In this document: positions 53,061 to 59,651 of the stretch, piece by piece
Layout: every line of letters starts with the position of its first letter
Position numbering within the stretch: position 1 is the first letter of the stretch
Virus record (IMG/VR): IMGVR_UViG_3300042562_000446
Span: 1 to 63,720 of that record
DNA length: 63,720 nucleotides
Origin: a virus
Direction: 5' to 3' (one strand)
Position numbers and translations under genes: made by a program
Notes under the pieces: generated by a model
What the model was told of the DNA's origin: nothing
What the model saw: only the letters and a program-made list of their open reading frames with translations
The model's database searches: none

Positions 53061-54094
53061 AAATTGCAATCATCAATGATACGCATTTTGGAGCAAGAAA
53101 CGATTCACCATTATTTCTTGATTACTTTATGCGATTTTTCAATGATCAGTTTTTTCCATATTGCAAAGAACATAAGATAGACACAGTATTACACTTGGGA
53201 GATCTTTTAGATCGCCGTAAGTTTGTAAATTTCAACACACTGTCTATTGTTCGAACTCAGTTCATTGAGTGGTTCGAAAACAATAATGTAAGGTTACATT
53301 GTATCTTAGGCAATCATGACACATTCTTTAAGAACACAAATGAAGTCAATTCCATCAAGGAATTGTTTTGCACTAAGTACAAATCAATAACTCTACACGA
53401 GAAACCAACGATTCTTGACTTTGATGGTGTCAAGATTGCTATGGTTCCGTGGATTAATAAAGAGAATGAACAAGAGTTTCATACATTTATTAAAAACTGT
53501 TCTACCTCAATTATTTGTGGTCATTTTGAATTAAACGGTTATGAAGTAATTCATGGAGTTAACTTCGAGGGAGGAATGGATGATACTATTCTCTCTTGTT
53601 ATGAAATGGTCATATCCGGGCATTTTCATGGTAAGACTTCTAAGAAAAATGTTCACTACTTAGGAACCCAGTATCAAATTACATTCTCTGACGCAAGACA
53701 AGTCAAGGGATTTCATGTATTTGATACGGACACACGAGAGTTAGAATTCGTGGAGAACCCAGAAAGAATGTATCATGTAATAATGTACAATGATGCAACT
53801 GATGTTCTTTCTACTAAGTTTGATCTCTATAAGAACACATATGTGAAGATTATTGTTGTTAAGAAAACTAAGCCAGTAGTATTTGATGAATACATTGATA
53901 AGATGGTACAAGCTGGCGTTATCAATATTAATATCATCGAAGACCAAATAGAAACGTCTGAAGAAGTAATTGATATGGCTCAAGATACCATTACAATTAT
54001 TAATGATGAGATAGATAAACTTGAAATCTCAGAAGATAAAGATAAACTAAAAATGTTGATTCATGAACTGTATATCGAAAGCATTTCTATATGA
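53057..54094 (+). CDS. 47: Recombination endonuclease subunit gp47 (SbcD/Mre11 type)
   Basis: 345 residues (T4 gp47 has 339). It starts with GTG at 53057 inside the previous stop (GTGA). Metallophosphoesterase motifs in order: NDTHFG (7-12), LGDLLDRRK (47-55), LGNHD (84-88), CGHFE (154-158) and SGHFHGK (187-193). With gp46 it resects dsDNA ends and degrades host DNA. gp46 overlaps the stop by 4 bases. Confidence 0.96.
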   Translation: MKIAIINDTHFGARNDSPLFLDYFMRFFNDQFFPYCKEHKIDTVLHLGDLLDRRKFVNFNTLSIVRTQFIEWFENNNVRLHCILGNHDTFFKNTNEVNSIKELFCTKYKSITLHEKPTILDFDGVKIAMVPWINKENEQEFHTFIKNCSTSIICGHFELNGYEVIHGVNFEGGMDDTILSCYEMVISGHFHGKTSKKNVHYLGTQYQITFSDARQVKGFHVFDTDTRELEFVENPERMYHVIMYNDATDVLSTKFDLYKNTYVKIIVVKKTKPVVFDEYIDKMVQAGVININIIEDQIETSEEVIDMAQDTITIINDEIDKLEISEDKDKLKMLIHELYIESISI

Positions 54095-55812
54095 TTATAT
54101 TTCAAAAAGTAAAATTTAAAAACTTTGGTTCGTTTGGAAACAATTTTACTGAAATAGTACTAGACGCTAGAAAGAATACTCTTGTCTCAGGAATCAATGG
54201 CAATGGTAAATCTTTTGCGTTTCTAGATTCCATTACATTTGCGCTATTCGGTAAACCATTCCGAAAAATCAACATACCTCAATTAGTCAACTCGATCAAT
54301 AAGAAAGACTGTATTGTTGAGTTGTCGTTTCAGATTGGAATGGATAAGTATGTTGTTAAACGAGGATTGGCTCCAAAGCTATTTGAGATTTATAAAAATG
54401 GAGAAATGATCAACCAATCTGCAAAGAATAAAGATTATCAGGATTTCTTCGAAGAACAGATTCTAAGAATGAATTACAAGTCATTTACTCAAGTAGTAAT
54501 TCTTGGTCGTTCTTCGTTTGTTCCATTCATGCAGCTACCTGCAGCGGATAGACGAAACGTCATTGAAGACATTCTTGACATTAATGTGTTTACAACAATG
54601 AACACCATACTAAAGAGTAGAATGTCTCTGACTAAAAGTATGATTCACACATACGATACTGAAATTTCTTTATTGGGTGAAAAGATAAACCTAAAGAAGA
54701 AGTTTATCAAATCAATACAGGCAAAGAGTAAAGAGTCTGTTGAGAAAATTAATGAAAAGCTAAAGTCACTAAACGTATCCTGTGAAGAAATAACTCAGAA
54801 GAAAGAGACTCATGTTAATTCTCTTTCGTCTATTGTGTTAGATGAAACTGTAAAATCAAAGACAGATAAGACCATTAAGACACTAGAGAAGTTGAAGACT
54901 CAAATTCAACAAAACTCAGACAACTGCAAAAAGGAAATTGGTTTTTTCCACGACAATGATTCCTGCCCTGTGTGTAAACAGGCAATTACAGATTCTTTTA
55001 AGAAAACACAGATTGAACAAAAGGAAATAAAGGAAACAGAATACGTCAAAGCCATTACTGACATTGATGTCAAATTAGAATCAGCAGAAGAGATTCGAAG
55101 CATTCATGAAAAGACATTAGAAGAAATTCGTTCTATTAAATTATCAATCTCACAGTTGAATATTTCATACGATGCTGTGATGAAGAATATAAAGGAACTC
55201 ACTTCTGAATTGAGCCAATCTAATACAACGGAAGATGGTGTCGCTACAGAAACAATAGAGCTAGAAGCTATAGAGAATCAGTTGATTGATATCAATGCAG
55301 GAAGAAAGCAACTACAAGATGGTATTCGCCATATGGAGATAGCGGGAATTCTTCTTCGTGATTCTGGCATCAAGGGAAAGATCATAAAGAACTATCTTCC
55401 AATTATTAATAAGACAGTTAATAAGTTTCTATCGGCTATGGATTTCTTTGCACAGTTTAGTCTAGATGAAGAATTCAACGAGACGATTAAAAGCCGTAGT
55501 CGAGATAGCTTTAGTTACATGAGCTTCAGTGAGGGAGAAAAGATGAGAATAGATCTATCTCTATTACTGGCATGGAGAGAAGTTGCCAGAGTCAAGAACA
55601 GCGCAAACTGTAACCTGTTGATTCTAGACGAGATATTTGATTCCTCTCTAGATGCCGTTGGAGCAGAAGAGTTCATGAAACTCTTGACAGGATTAGATTC
55701 CAAAACTAACATATTCGTAATATCACACCGCGCAGACACTCTTGTGGATAAGTTTAGCACGGTTATTAGTCTAGAGAAGAAAAAGAACTTTAGCAAGCTG
55801 AGCGTATCATGA
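54091..55812 (+). CDS. 46: Recombination endonuclease subunit gp46 (SbcC/Rad50 type)
   Basis: 573 residues (T4 gp46 has 560). Walker A SGINGNGKS (33-41). A long coiled coil has a CPVC zinc hook at 292-295, then the ABC signature SFSEGEK (478-484) and Walker B LLILDEIFD (509-517). All motifs are intact. It powers gp47 resection and recombination-dependent replication. Its stop is overlapped by the PLP-enzyme start (ATGA), so the cargo segment is read with the 47/46 operon. Confidence 0.96.
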   Translation: MIIFQKVKFKNFGSFGNNFTEIVLDARKNTLVSGINGNGKSFAFLDSITFALFGKPFRKINIPQLVNSINKKDCIVELSFQIGMDKYVVKRGLAPKLFEIYKNGEMINQSAKNKDYQDFFEEQILRMNYKSFTQVVILGRSSFVPFMQLPAADRRNVIEDILDINVFTTMNTILKSRMSLTKSMIHTYDTEISLLGEKINLKKKFIKSIQAKSKESVEKINEKLKSLNVSCEEITQKKETHVNSLSSIVLDETVKSKTDKTIKTLEKLKTQIQQNSDNCKKEIGFFHDNDSCPVCKQAITDSFKKTQIEQKEIKETEYVKAITDIDVKLESAEEIRSIHEKTLEEIRSIKLSISQLNISYDAVMKNIKELTSELSQSNTTEDGVATETIELEAIENQLIDINAGRKQLQDGIRHMEIAGILLRDSGIKGKIIKNYLPIINKTVNKFLSAMDFFAQFSLDEEFNETIKSRSRDSFSYMSFSEGEKMRIDLSLLLAWREVARVKNSANCNLLILDEIFDSSLDAVGAEEFMKLLTGLDSKTNIFVISHRADTLVDKFSTVISLEKKKNFSKLSVS

Positions 55813-56573
55813 GCCTAATGACAACTGATGATTATTTGGAGTTGATAGCAGATTGGAACGATCCAAACGCTGCTCCTATCGTTCGTAGACACGATAAGTT
55901 CTTTGTTGTCCGAGATGACTACATTGGAGGGGGGTCGAAGATGCGCTTCATTGATTATATGGTGTCTAGGCTCCCCTATACGGAGTTTGTTTACGGAAGT
56001 TCCCCCGCGACAGGTTATGCTCAAATAAGTATCGCTAAAGTCGCTTCTAAGTATGGTAAAAAAGCAGTAATCTTTATGGCTGAGCGTTCTATGGATAAGC
56101 TGCATGAGTACCAACAAATGGCTATTGATTCTGGTGCAGACATGAGATTTGTGCCTAATGGTATGCTTAGTGTCACGGAAAAGCGAGCCAAAGATTATGT
56201 TAAGAAATCGCCTTCTACCAGATGCCTAATACCAATTGGTGGTGAGGATGAGACAGTACTTGCTTCTATAGTTAAGGTTGCTCGGTATATGACAATGCGA
56301 CCTAAAGAAGTATGGAGCGTAGGTTCAAGTGGAGTTCTGACAAGAGGATTACAGATGGCCTGGCCAGATGCTAACTTTCATGTCGTGGCTGTTGGACATA
56401 AGGGAGATTATGGTAGAGCTAAGGTATATCAGTGTGATATTCCTTTTAACAAACCAATAAAGCCTGAGAATGCTCCGCCATTTCCTTCTGCTCCAACATA
56501 CGATGCAAAGGCATGGGAGTTTATGAAAAAGTATGGCTCTGCAGATGCATTGTTTTGGAATGTTGGTGCTTGA
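55809..56573 (+). CDS. Fold-type II PLP-dependent enzyme
   Basis: 254 residues, a short member of the tryptophan-synthase-beta superfamily, nearest in pattern to ACC deaminase / D-cysteine desulfhydrase. VVRDDYIGGGSKMRFIDY places Lys44 as the PLP Schiff-base residue (family: RxDxxxxxGGNKxR). SSPATGY at 64-70 takes the place of SNH. IPIGGEDETVLASI near 141-154 is the substrate-side loop, and VGSSGVLTRGL (171-181) is the Gly-rich PLP-phosphate loop. It is shorter than cellular homologues (~330 aa). It is translationally coupled to gp46 and precedes a DNA methyltransferase by 30 bases. The reaction and substrate are unknown; an amino-acid lyase or ligase-like step in DNA-base modification or metabolism is possible. 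Confidence 0.75.
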   Translation: MSLMTTDDYLELIADWNDPNAAPIVRRHDKFFVVRDDYIGGGSKMRFIDYMVSRLPYTEFVYGSSPATGYAQISIAKVASKYGKKAVIFMAERSMDKLHEYQQMAIDSGADMRFVPNGMLSVTEKRAKDYVKKSPSTRCLIPIGGEDETVLASIVKVARYMTMRPKEVWSVGSSGVLTRGLQMAWPDANFHVVAVGHKGDYGRAKVYQCDIPFNKPIKPENAPPFPSAPTYDAKAWEFMKKYGSADALFWNVGA

Positions 56574-56597
56574 TGTTTTCAACAAACACGGTATACT
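56570..56597 (+). promoter_or_regulatory. Sigma70-like promoter before the methyltransferase
   Basis: TTGATG (56570-56575), 16-base spacer, TATACT (56592-56597). The -10 ends 6 bases before the ATG at 56604, so the RNA would start at or beside the ATG. No Shine-Dalgarno is visible. Confidence 0.5.
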
Positions 56598-56603
56598 AAT
56601 ATC

Positions 56604-58202
56604 ATGAGCAGTAATTTCTATGTGAGAAATGATTATGTTATTTCTTCCAATGTTAATGTTTTATTCGAAGATCTTTTAAATAAGACTCCAATAGAATTTG
56701 AACAGTGGGTTAAAGAAATGCGTAAAGAAATTCTTTATGCATGGGATACTTTTGGCTGCCCTCCTCGCACTGGCAAAAGTGAAGCGGATGTAATTGATCA
56801 GTTTAACAAGATGATGAACTATCCAGTTTCTCAGTTTACTCACACAGATGAGTTGAATACTGACGGAACTGTGAATGACGTTATAATCAATAAAGCCAGA
56901 ATTGGTGGAGAAGCAGATCAGTGGTTCTCCAACATGATGAAGACTCGAATCAACTACACAGAAAAAGATACTGGTCATTCTGTCTATGATCTATTTGCAG
57001 ATGACGCATATCTTGGTCGAGTAGTTAAAGGTGCAACTAGGCATCTTCGTCGTGATTCTTTTTATCGTCATGCTTTATCTGGCATAAAGAACAACACAAA
57101 GTATGGAATCATAGAATCAAATTCCGGTGAAGAATGGATTCAAGCTTTTTTTGAGAATCCTTCTATATTTGAAGGATATGATTTCATGCTTGAAGAAGTA
57201 ATGCTGCGAACCGGATTGAATAGTGGATACTTTCAAATTCAACAGAGTGACATACTTCAGATCACTAAAGATGAATTTCTAAAGTGGAAACCTAAAATGT
57301 CCTACAGGCATTATTCTACATTTGATCATACTACCACAAACACAAAAGATGACAGAGTTTACTCTATAAGAATATATAAAAAAGGAGAACGAGTATTTCC
57401 AGCCGGATTTGCTTCGTTTCGAATTGGTTATATTCAAGTAGCAGTTAACTTTCCTCCACTAACAGCAAAGTACATTTATGAAAGATTTACGGAACATATT
57501 GAAGGACATGATCGATTGGTTATTTATGATCCCTCTAGCGGTTGGGGTGGCCGTATTCTTGGCGCTATGTCTTTTAGTGATGCTCGTAGTGTGCATTATG
57601 TGGGCACTGATCCTAACTCTGAGAACTGGGTTGCTGATGGTTATCCATCAAAGTACCATGCTCTTGCAGATTTTTACAACACCAAAACATACAGATCAAA
57701 CACATTCTTCTCCAACACAAACACATACGATGTATACTCATCCGGTTCTGAAGAAATTCATAAGTTGGAGTCCTTTCAGGCATACAAGGGCAAGTTAGAT
57801 TTAGTCTTTACTTCTCCTCCGTATTTTAATAGAGAAGCCTATTCGGAAGATGCAGAGCAATCGTATAAGAAGTTTAGTACATACGAATCTTGGAGAGATG
57901 GTTTTTTACGACCAACTCTAGAAACCTGTGTATCATATCTAAAGGCAGATCGTTATCTGTTGTGGAATATAGCAGACTTGTTAATTTCTGGAGAATATCT
58001 GCCATTAGAACAAGATTCTAAAGATATATTAGAAAGCCTTGGTATGAAGTTTAAAGGCGTATTGAAAATGGGTCTTGAATCCATGCCTGGTCAAAATCGG
58101 TTAGACGAAAATGGTGTGCCTAAGTGTAAAAACTATTGCAAAGTCAACGGAAGTTATGTAAAATACGAACCTATCCTCATATTCTATAAACCAAATGATT
58201 AA
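56604..58202 (+). CDS. DNA methyltransferase-like protein (TSPPY type)
   Basis: 532 residues. The catalytic motif IV FTSPPYFNRE is at 402-411 and a motif-I-like segment YDPSSGWGGRILGAM at 308-322, with GTDPN at 334-338 as the cofactor-side strand end. This fits the amino-methyltransferase fold (N4-cytosine or N6-adenine class; TSPPY is commonest in N4-C enzymes). The N-terminal ~250 residues are not typical of a methyltransferase and may bind DNA or a partner. The ending ESMPGQNRLDENGVPK is conserved-looking. It lies between the PLP enzyme and a conserved unknown; no restriction nuclease is beside it. It may protect phage DNA or take part in a multi-step modification. Confidence 0.75.
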   Translation: MSSNFYVRNDYVISSNVNVLFEDLLNKTPIEFEQWVKEMRKEILYAWDTFGCPPRTGKSEADVIDQFNKMMNYPVSQFTHTDELNTDGTVNDVIINKARIGGEADQWFSNMMKTRINYTEKDTGHSVYDLFADDAYLGRVVKGATRHLRRDSFYRHALSGIKNNTKYGIIESNSGEEWIQAFFENPSIFEGYDFMLEEVMLRTGLNSGYFQIQQSDILQITKDEFLKWKPKMSYRHYSTFDHTTTNTKDDRVYSIRIYKKGERVFPAGFASFRIGYIQVAVNFPPLTAKYIYERFTEHIEGHDRLVIYDPSSGWGGRILGAMSFSDARSVHYVGTDPNSENWVADGYPSKYHALADFYNTKTYRSNTFFSNTNTYDVYSSGSEEIHKLESFQAYKGKLDLVFTSPPYFNREAYSEDAEQSYKKFSTYESWRDGFLRPTLETCVSYLKADRYLLWNIADLLISGEYLPLEQDSKDILESLGMKFKGVLKMGLESMPGQNRLDENGVPKCKNYCKVNGSYVKYEPILIFYKPND

Positions 58203-59322
58203 ACAAAACGCTGAAGACATTTTCTACGGTAAAGAACCAAACTGGAAGCACTGGACACCGGAAGACTTTAAAGATACCGATAAGGTAACTTGGTCTATCG
58301 CTCTTGCTGCCAATTGGTATAATGTTCGCTATACTGAACGCGACTATCGCATTGCTGTGTTAGAGTACGTTGATCGACTCAAGATCGAAGAAGGAGAGTA
58401 TGTTCATAGGCTAAACACAGACAACTATGAATTTAGAAGCATTGGCGGAAAATGCCAAGCAGCTAATAAAGGTTGTATTCTTCCTGAGCAATTCCAAGAC
58501 ATAGTAGATTCTACTATTCTCACATTGATTGCTCGTGGTAAGTGTATTTCTGTTGAAGAAAAAACAGATGAACCTATCTCCGTGAGAAGCCGTGTTATGA
58601 AGCAATCTTGTATATTGGCTTCTGAATTGGAAGAAGAGATCGATGACTATATGGAATATATTCTAGGATCTCGTGATTCCTATAAGAAGTTTGATATGGA
58701 ACAATGGATCAAATCTGCTGAACCAAGCGGAATGCATTGTGAATTTATGCTTCAGACATTTGATCATCGGACAGAAGAATTGAAGATGGCTCTTCTTGGC
58801 GAAAATGAACAATTGCTTGAAGGATATAATTACCTAAGCAAAGCTCAGCTCAGAAAGTTCTACGACTTTAACAAACTAATCTGCGATCAACTAAAACTTC
58901 ATATGTCAATTATGAAAAGTAATCGTAAGCCGCGCAAGAAGAAAAAGAAGAAGCCAGAACAAGTTGTCAAGAAGCTGAAGTATTTGGTAAAAGATACTGC
59001 AAGTGGTGCTGAGTCAATTCTTCCGGAAGAGATTATCGGAGCGTCTACGGTTATTGTATATAATACAAAGACACATAAGGCATCTATTTTCTACGCAGAC
59101 ACAAGCACTTCAGGAATTTCTGTGAAGGGTTCCACCATTATTGGATTTGATGCTGCTCTATCTAAAGAAAAGTCTATTCGTAAGCCAACAGAATTTATTA
59201 AGATAGCGAAGAAAGATGGTATTCGTTCTATAAATAATACATGGAAGTCGATAAAGGCAAAAGAATCTATTCCTACTGGTCGAATTAATACCAACACTCT
59301 TATTCTACGATCCATTAAATGA
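58195..59322 (+). CDS. Conserved protein of unknown function
   Basis: 375 residues. The N-terminal ~250 are helical and acidic/basic mixed (e.g. VTWSIALAANWYNVRYTERD), followed by a Lys-rich bridge (KPRKKKKKKPEQVVKK near 245-260). A C-terminal ~110-residue domain has ILPEEIIGASTVIVYNTKTH, SVKGSTIIGFDAALSKEKS and RKPTEFIKIAKKDG, a pattern I associate with conserved hypothetical proteins of marine T4-like phages. No catalytic motif. It overlaps the methyltransferase stop by 8 bases and the next start by 4, so it is co-expressed with both. Confidence 0.65.
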   Translation: MIKQNAEDIFYGKEPNWKHWTPEDFKDTDKVTWSIALAANWYNVRYTERDYRIAVLEYVDRLKIEEGEYVHRLNTDNYEFRSIGGKCQAANKGCILPEQFQDIVDSTILTLIARGKCISVEEKTDEPISVRSRVMKQSCILASELEEEIDDYMEYILGSRDSYKKFDMEQWIKSAEPSGMHCEFMLQTFDHRTEELKMALLGENEQLLEGYNYLSKAQLRKFYDFNKLICDQLKLHMSIMKSNRKPRKKKKKKPEQVVKKLKYLVKDTASGAESILPEEIIGASTVIVYNTKTHKASIFYADTSTSGISVKGSTIIGFDAALSKEKSIRKPTEFIKIAKKDGIRSINNTWKSIKAKESIPTGRINTNTLILRSIK

Positions 59323-59651
59323 CATCAATTGATAATTTAAATTTTAAAGGTGCTTATCGCGCATACGATGCCGATGGCAAACTTGTTAAATATAAAATTG
59401 GAGATTCTGTAACTTATAAGGGTAGCACATATGTGGCAAACCGTATGGTTACAGAAACTTCTCCTGCTCACGGAGAGGTTGGTGGTTGGACTTCTCTACA
59501 GGGTGGAGGAGTTGCGGGTGTTCGCTTTTATTGGGGTGGCACACGACCAATAAAGGCTAATGTTGGTGATGAGTGGTTTGATCTTGCTACTGCAAAGACA
59601 TACAAGTATCTCAGCGACGGTAACAGTGAACAATGGGTTAATATCTATTGA
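59319..59651 (+). CDS. Small fibre-like / carbohydrate-binding-like protein
   Basis: 110 residues. The first half (YKIGDSVTYKGSTYVANR, then Trp in GGWTSL) follows the CBM5/12-like pattern GDxVxYxGxxYxA...W. The second half (VGDEWFDLATAKTYKYLSDG, then QWVNIY) is a motif repeated in phage fibre proteins. It is odd to find it inside the replication cluster and not with the fibres. No signal peptide. It could be a displaced virion component or a secreted/capsid sugar binder. Overlaps the upstream stop by 4 bases. Confidence 0.55.
   Translation: MTSIDNLNFKGAYRAYDADGKLVKYKIGDSVTYKGSTYVANRMVTETSPAHGEVGGWTSLQGGGVAGVRFYWGGTRPIKANVGDEWFDLATAKTYKYLSDGNSEQWVNIY

Follow-up and report, generated by a model that had tools for sequence, protein, structure and literature searches.

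Downstream of a gp46-like recombination gene in a marine phage, a PLP enzyme is encoded next to a methyltransferase-like protein. The locus raises the question of whether the two proteins work together, and whether their joint substrate is phage DNA, as a preliminary description of the sequence had proposed in calling them a possible base-modification module. We addressed this question in the window (the whole stretch of DNA analysed, a 63.7-kb fragment) and in related phage loci.

Results

Both genes of the pair are real. As described earlier, the PLP reading frame begins within the stop codon of the gp46 gene, through an ATGA at 55809–55812. The features of the locus are as follows.

54091–55812, + strand: gp46-like recombination subunit, with a stop codon that overlaps the PLP start codon
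55809–56573, + strand: PLP gene, 254-aa fold-type II enzyme, D-cysteine desulfhydrase/ACC deaminase-like
55938–55940, + strand: codon, from the sequence, of K44, the predicted Schiff-base lysine (motif VxRDDxxGGGxKxR)
56322–56333, + strand: GSSG loop, residues 172–175, predicted PLP phosphate-binding loop
56604–58202, + strand: methyltransferase-fold gene, 532 aa, with TSPPY
56604–57428, + strand: N-terminal region of the methyltransferase, approximately residues 1–275, conserved in relatives
57528–57563, + strand: methyltransferase motif I, DPSSGWGGRILG (D309–G320), with the Arg317 codon at 57552–57554
57810–57845, + strand: methyltransferase motif IV, TSPPYFNREAYS, whose Glu411 and Tyr413 are common to the ParB-methyltransferase family
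58195–59322, + strand: 375-aa gene, phrog_11903 (function unknown), overlapping the methyltransferase stop

The phrog_11903 gene was present in relatives both with and without the PLP gene and is therefore probably not a member of the module.

The PLP protein matched phrog_7093 (3.8e-36); the Pfam PALP match was weak for the window protein (0.015) and reached 4.6e-12 for one homologue. Its predicted structure (pLDDT 93.4) gave D-cysteine desulfhydrase and an ACC-deaminase homologue as top PDB matches (TM 0.79; 4d8w, E 1.3e-10, TM 0.79). K44 was kept in 160/160 distinct homologues covering that position, G175 and D/E232 were each found in 161/161, and residue 173 of the glycine loop was S or G. 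The fold match and these counts bore out the earlier assignment of a fold-type II enzyme with an intact Lys44 and glycine loop, and, judged from its sequence, the enzyme looks catalytically intact. With D-cysteine desulfhydrase and ACC deaminase it has in common the fold, the RDD..G.K.R lysine motif and a Y-[DE]-x-K segment in the C-terminal part, which in 1j0a reads YTGK. It differs from them in being 70–100 residues shorter, in its PPFPS...YDAKAW...FWN C-terminus, and in carrying P-x-x-G-x-A in place of the canonical SxNH/SGNH substrate loop. Thus, the fold is shared, but by this last feature the window enzyme is a member of neither family.

The neighbouring protein matched N6_N4_Mtase (PF01555) at residues 399–530 (3.4e-6; 27.6 bits against a cut-off of 26.7), with TSPPY at residues 403–407. 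A SAM-binding motif I (DPSSGWGG) and a motif IV of the form [DNST]PP[YFW] (TSPPY) would class it as a DNA amino-methyltransferase of the N4C/N6A type. Motif I was recognised in 53 of 54 representatives, all of which have its Arg; Arg317 was invariant in A3, and this residue may bind the SAM carboxylate. The N-terminal region of approximately 275 residues received no Pfam or PHROG assignment, and its PDB matches were to generic methyltransferases; the unusual N-terminal domain noted at the outset (then put at about 250 residues) held up. Uncharacterised methyltransferases from pithovirus and other viruses align across most of the length of the window protein. An hhalign comparison relates the window family to the ParB-methyltransferases (97.6%, 3e-12, spanning PPYxxxExYS), and a Foldseek search with the window methyltransferase found the enzyme of Mycobacterium phage Vincenzo. 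Phage ParB-DNA methyltransferases (phrog_498/12517; phrog_498 carries no annotation beyond DNA methyltransferase) share with it a methyltransferase core containing PPYxxxExYS and, at the equivalent motif I position, an Arg; unlike them, the window enzyme has no ParB and carries its own N-domain.

The pairing is no local accident. At T4-like-type loci, a methyltransferase lay within 2 kb of the PLP gene in 102 of 115 cases, and wherever a methyltransferase was found at PLP-fetched loci of this type, the PLP gene adjoined it (71/71). A second PLP group (PLPa), mostly from alphaproteobacterial phages, was accompanied by a related 'PPYxxxExYS' methyltransferase at 86/86 loci, within 2 kb at 85 of them. 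Erythrobacter phages have the PLP domain within the ParB-methyltransferase itself, between motifs I and IV. Pseudanabaena phage Pam4 has a different PALP-family domain at the equivalent position, and Vincenzo has a third PALP type 3' of its ParB-methyltransferase. The statement that T4-like core genomes do not carry the pair was correct for cultured phages (no T4-like PLP match in 50,697 records, and methyltransferase matches of less than 50% coverage) and incorrect for uncultured marine T4-like phages, where the pair is common. Independent occurrence of the two genes, which the preliminary description had named as evidence against a module, proved one-sided: the PLP gene was nearly always with a methyltransferase, one clade excepted, whereas the methyltransferase often occurred without the PLP gene, usually then with a GNAT or glutamine-synthetase-like gene adjoining.

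A GNAT occupies the PLP slot in T4-like relatives, and in other phages the partner slot holds an S-adenosylmethionine (AdoMet) decarboxylase. The decarboxylase of Croceibacter phage P2559S has proven activity and was read as polyamine metabolism in a report whose text contains neither 'methyltransferase' nor 'ParB' (PMC9992855); its gene is the one that overlaps a ParB-methyltransferase. No spermidine synthase was found in 10/10 decarboxylase-carrying phage records, which argues against spermidine synthesis as the purpose of the decarboxylase, although the host may have a synthase. Beside the decarboxylase, methyltransferase motif I reads FAGD[ST]VF, and other methyltransferases have Arg at that place. 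The motif co-varied with the decarboxylase (39/40 decarboxylase-linked versus 0/60 Arg-type, de-duplicated), a correlation that comes from one main clade with at most 4 independent pairs and a sign-test floor of p 0.125. At the three losses on the tree motif I departs too; at L290, FAGD..F is kept without the decarboxylase. The window methyltransferase is of the Arg type with a PLP partner, lacking both FAGD[ST]VF and an overlapping decarboxylase gene. Motif I stayed the same whether the PLP gene was gained or lost, and so nothing in the methyltransferase itself indicates another product when the PLP enzyme is present.

Other neighbours were an Asp/Asn-hydroxylase-like dioxygenase, a GS-like ligase and, between the methyltransferase and PLP gene of L255, a Mom-like protein (PF25680 4e-4, below its cut-off). 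Together with the GNAT, these neighbours fit a side chain with an amine or acid. Mom of phage Mu is a GNAT-fold DNA modifier. Kinship of the T4-like GNAT with Mom was rejected (hhalign 0.4%), and the Mom family (PF25680) was absent from 16 PLP-bearing records, including the near-identical contig of L004. Many Arg-type methyltransferases are partnerless and could be plain methylases.

Discussion

A role for the PLP enzyme and the methyltransferase in phage DNA modification is likely because the genes adjoin in unrelated phages, because the PLP domain is fused inside the methyltransferase, and because it is exchanged with AdoMet decarboxylase and GNAT. To this extent the base-modification module stands, as a conserved unit. 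The analogy proposed for it is not supported. Thymidine hypermodification in phages ViI, M6, phiW-14 and SP10 resembles the proposed module in that phage DNA is modified and an amino-acid side chain can be the substrate of a PLP enzyme, but the partner here is an amino-methyltransferase-fold enzyme, and both the neighbouring genes and the exchanged partners suggest S-adenosylmethionine instead. The classical thymidine route likewise lacks support in the window, a 63.7-kb fragment in which neither a thymidylate-synthase homologue (PF00303) nor a supporting neighbour was found. In the library of papers searched, none linked these genes to DNA modification.

A comparable scheme is that of the tRNA aminocarboxypropyl/wybutosine enzymes (TYW2/TapT, TYW5), in which a methyltransferase-fold enzyme transfers acp from SAM and hydroxylation or other tailoring follows, although their target is RNA and that of the proposed module would be DNA. 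That relatives have an acetyltransferase or a SAM decarboxylase in place of the PLP partner suggests that decoration of DNA with SAM-derived amino-acid-like groups may replace plain methyl. The best explanation, to which we assign a probability of slightly less than one half, has the methyltransferase-fold enzyme attach a side chain made from the SAM tail, for the PLP enzyme to tailor; for SAM-tail chemistry as such, the odds are even or slightly less. The methyltransferase-fold enzyme would flip adenine or cytosine and transfer to the exocyclic amine the SAM amino-acid tail (3-amino-3-carboxypropyl), and not, or not only, methyl; in the decarboxylase-linked clade, aminopropyl would be transferred from decarboxylated SAM. 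The PLP enzyme would then work on the alpha-amino acid of the side chain, for example by deamination, decarboxylation or elimination, to yield the final base, which would shield phage DNA from nucleases. This step order and this product are a proposal only.

The PLP enzyme might instead act before transfer, making an unusual donor for the methyltransferase-fold enzyme out of free SAM or a different amino acid, much as the AdoMet decarboxylase would supply decarboxylated SAM to its neighbour. The proven activity of that swapped partner is indeed on free SAM (PMC9992855), and the adjoining motif I changes with it. However, motif I is indifferent to the presence of the PLP gene, and GNAT, hydroxylase and Mom-like neighbours better suit tailoring after transfer, which makes a pre-transfer role unlikely. 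We give slightly less credence to ordinary N4-methylcytosine or N6-methyladenine protection with the PLP enzyme as a metabolic helper (for example, in by-product removal). TSPPY and PPY are amino-methyltransferase motifs, and many relatives stand alone, adjoining terminase genes; yet neither the PLP insertion inside a methyltransferase nor the exchange for a decarboxylase, an enzyme that normally yields an aminopropyl donor, is accounted for in this way.

An auxiliary metabolic function for the PLP enzyme, without relation to the methyltransferase, would suit the excepted clade, L020. Six records of this clade, up to 165 kb long, contained no N6_N4 methyltransferase, and its PLP gene lies close to genes for DNA polymerase and ribonucleotide reductase; searches with the two genes upstream of this PLP gene against Pfam, NCBIfam, PHROG, PDB and phage sequences gave nothing significant. 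The fusion, and the fact that the genes adjoin in independent phage groups, make this reading improbable. SAM-cleaving anti-restriction enzymes exist in other phages, and both the PLP enzyme and the decarboxylase could use SAM, but their pairing with a SAM-using enzyme whose motif I changes with the decarboxylase renders it still more improbable that they use up SAM as a means of countering host restriction or methylation. Least probable of all is a PLP fold serving merely as a specificity or scaffold domain: by motif order, the rule for alpha-class methyltransferases places the target-recognition domain between motifs I and IV, where the fused PLP domain sits, but K44 and D/E232 are retained without exception.

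More broadly, we tentatively suggest, at somewhat lower confidence than for tail transfer followed by tailoring, a phage family of DNA acp/aminopropyl transferases descended from amino-methyltransferases, which would use the tail of SAM or decarboxylated SAM and, together with PLP, GNAT, dioxygenase or amidoligase partners that can be exchanged for one another, make a range of undescribed base modifications. Cultured phages carrying the genes exist, and the module is therefore testable at once. If true, hypermodified DNA would be made directly from SAM, without a pool of modified nucleotides, in marine T4-like phages, alphaproteobacterial phages and mycobacteriophages, and some phage AdoMet decarboxylases so far read as polyamine genes would have a second possible role.

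Genomic context and the PLP protein

The 63.7-kb virus record has a T4-like gene order, comprising in sequence a major head protein, a uvsW-like helicase, a gp55-like sigma factor, gp47, gp46, RNase H and the clamp, with uvsW and the clamp named from position and sequence features. The PLP and methyltransferase genes are placed between gp46 and a gene for a 375-aa protein:

55809-56573 (+), PLP gene, 254 aa, starting within the stop codon of gp46
56604-58202 (+), methyltransferase gene, 532 aa, starting 30 bases past the PLP stop
58195-59322, 375-aa gene (phrog_11903), overlapping the methyltransferase stop; present in relatives with and without PLP
59319-59651, small gene flanked by the 375-aa gene and RNase H; it weakly matches a carbohydrate-binding module (PF02839, 0.0018)

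The PLP protein matched Pfam PALP weakly (0.015; its homologues scored 3.5e-10 and 4.6e-12) and phrog_7093 strongly (3.8e-36), and its AlphaFold2 model (mean pLDDT 93.4) had as top PDB matches D-cysteine desulfhydrase and the ACC-deaminase homologue 1j0a (TM 0.79, from the predicted structure). Among 161 distinct homologues, R35, D37, G42, K44 (the predicted Schiff-base lysine), G69 and G144 were kept in 160/160 covering sequences and G175, Y231 and K234 in 161/161; position 232 was D or E. These results bear out the preliminary description of a fold-type II PLP enzyme with an intact Lys44. Enzymes of the D-cysteine desulfhydrase/ACC deaminase type usually carry an SxNH/SGNH substrate loop, whereas this family has PxxGxA at that place. 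Because the invariant residues are kept and the substrate loop is changed, the protein looks like an active PLP enzyme with no substrate assigned, and not all of its features fit either named family.

The methyltransferase

The methyltransferase has DPSSGWGGR as motif I and TSPPYFNREAYS as motif IV. Its N-terminal region, described earlier as an unusual domain of ~250 residues, proved to span about 275, conserved among relatives and assigned to no family. The catalytic half resembles the phage ParB-methyltransferases phrog_498/12517 (hhalign profile comparison, 97.6%, 3e-12), with which it has the PPYxxxExYS signature in common, and, independently of that comparison, the ParB-methyltransferase of Mycobacterium phage Vincenzo was among its best viral structure matches (2e-10). 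The Arg of the ParB group's motif I is also found in the family of the window's enzyme (R317).

Conservation of the pair

IMG/VR yielded 39 PLP relatives by single sequence and 537 and 574 by alignments, and the best 80 were used each time, so the frequencies describe these sampled nearest matches. A methyltransferase gene lay within 2 kb in 102/115 loci of the window's own T4-like type; the other 13 include contigs ending near the PLP gene and one genome (L019) in which the methyltransferase is present, but elsewhere. In a second, mostly alphaproteobacterial group, a ParB-type methyltransferase accompanied the PLP gene in 86/86 loci (85 within 2 kb), the two genes nearly always overlapping or nearly abutting. 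A matching arrangement occurs in bacterial genomes, those of Rhizobium, Rhodobacter, Devosia, Pannonibacter (two copies) and a Flavobacteriaceae bin; in the last, the methyltransferase gene behind the PLP gene is broken by a frame change (L129:6709-8300).

No N6_N4 methyltransferase was found in six records of one PLP clade (the L020 group). In this clade (L020-L041, L122, L123) two conserved proteins lie directly upstream (e.g. L020:2878-5236; 408 and 379 aa), and neither had a significant match in the libraries searched; L020 additionally encodes a SLOG-type protein that separates them from the PLP gene.

Outside this clade, the pairing proposed earlier nearly always holds from the side of the PLP gene, but the reverse association fails: the methyltransferase is frequently without it.

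Partner exchange

In 27 non-redundant T4-like-type loci fetched by methyltransferase alone, the slot held a GNAT gene in 12, PLP in 9, nothing in 3 and other or unresolved content in 3. Where gp46 abutted the methyltransferase, a glutamine-synthetase-like gene lay alongside in 6/7 sampled loci. Such a gene adjoins the T4-like-type methyltransferase in L088, L094-L098, L104, L108, L109, L111, L118, L155, L156, L160, L162, L177, L178 and L195, and in T4-like-type phages it sits between the PLP gene and the methyltransferase or just downstream. Asp/Asn-hydroxylase-like dioxygenases were neighbours in L040, L121, L188, L196-L198 and L345, and a Mom-like protein in L255.

Other neighbours were seen singly. 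Beside the PLP gene are a glycosyltransferase-like protein in L019 (6774-8147; PF00534, 3.5e-5) and proteins without family assignment in L012 (6714-7772) and L191 (5388-6167). A PAPS-reductase-family gene (L121:3716-4396; PF01507, 7e-40) lies between PLP gene and methyltransferase, and in L277, which also has the pair, a protein encoded on the minus strand matches phage Mu Mom (phmmer, 3.6e-13).

Within the ParB group, the methyltransferase gene of Pseudomonas phage ZRG1, Croceibacter phage P2559S and many IMG/VR contigs has an AdoMet decarboxylase gene overlapping or directly adjoining it. The P2559S enzyme makes decarboxylated SAM, since it restored spermidine synthesis in an E. coli speD mutant (PMC9992855). 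The activity of each phage decarboxylase is not assured, because certain SpeD homologues of phages decarboxylate ornithine or arginine (PMC10407285). No spermidine synthase was found in 10 decarboxylase-methyltransferase records. In L368, a close P2559S relative, the decarboxylase gene after the methyltransferase has lost the ESH catalytic segment through an in-frame deletion.

A motif search linked this partner to motif I. Methyltransferases with D at +5 and F at +8 had the decarboxylase in 49/49 cases, and those with G and R there in 0/116; with near copies removed the figures were 39/40 (D at +5) versus 0/60 (Fisher 4e-27, a figure inflated by relatedness). On a tree that left out the motif columns, and also L290, whose motif was not recognised, the decarboxylase was gained once and lost three times (L289, L334, L364), with motif I altered at each loss; four independent pairs put the floor of a sign test at 0.125. 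L362 has the decarboxylase with MAGD..L, and L290 (NPFAGD..F, decarboxylase absent) is an exception. The PLP partner was gained or lost in 10 changes on a methyltransferase motif I (GGSVR) that stayed essentially constant, showing no motif link like that of the decarboxylase.

Proposed chemistry

Decarboxylated SAM is the aminopropyl donor in spermidine synthesis (PMC9992855). From aminopropyl transfer onward, we infer the mechanism. For a methyltransferase-fold enzyme dependent on decarboxylated SAM, the simplest reaction would be aminopropyl transfer; by extension, the Arg-type sisters would transfer SAM's aminocarboxypropyl group, with the Arg of motif I perhaps holding the SAM carboxylate. 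The PLP enzyme would then act on the amino-acid side chain formed on DNA, and the GNAT, dioxygenase, glutamine-synthetase-like ligases and Mom-like protein may be other tailoring enzymes. It is also possible that the PLP enzyme makes the donor, or that the locus performs plain methylation with the PLP enzyme as helper.

In Erythrobacter phages ZS04 and R6L (full sequence read for ZS04), the PLP domain lies inside a ParB-methyltransferase between motifs I and IV; near the ZS04 fusion is a gene recorded as resembling PAPS reductase. At the corresponding position Pseudanabaena phage Pam4 carries another kind of PALP-family domain, and the ParB-methyltransferase gene of Vincenzo is overlapped by one for an ACC-deaminase-like protein. 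Because different PLP lineages recur in one place, these arrangements suggest that the chemistry itself may be what is selected.
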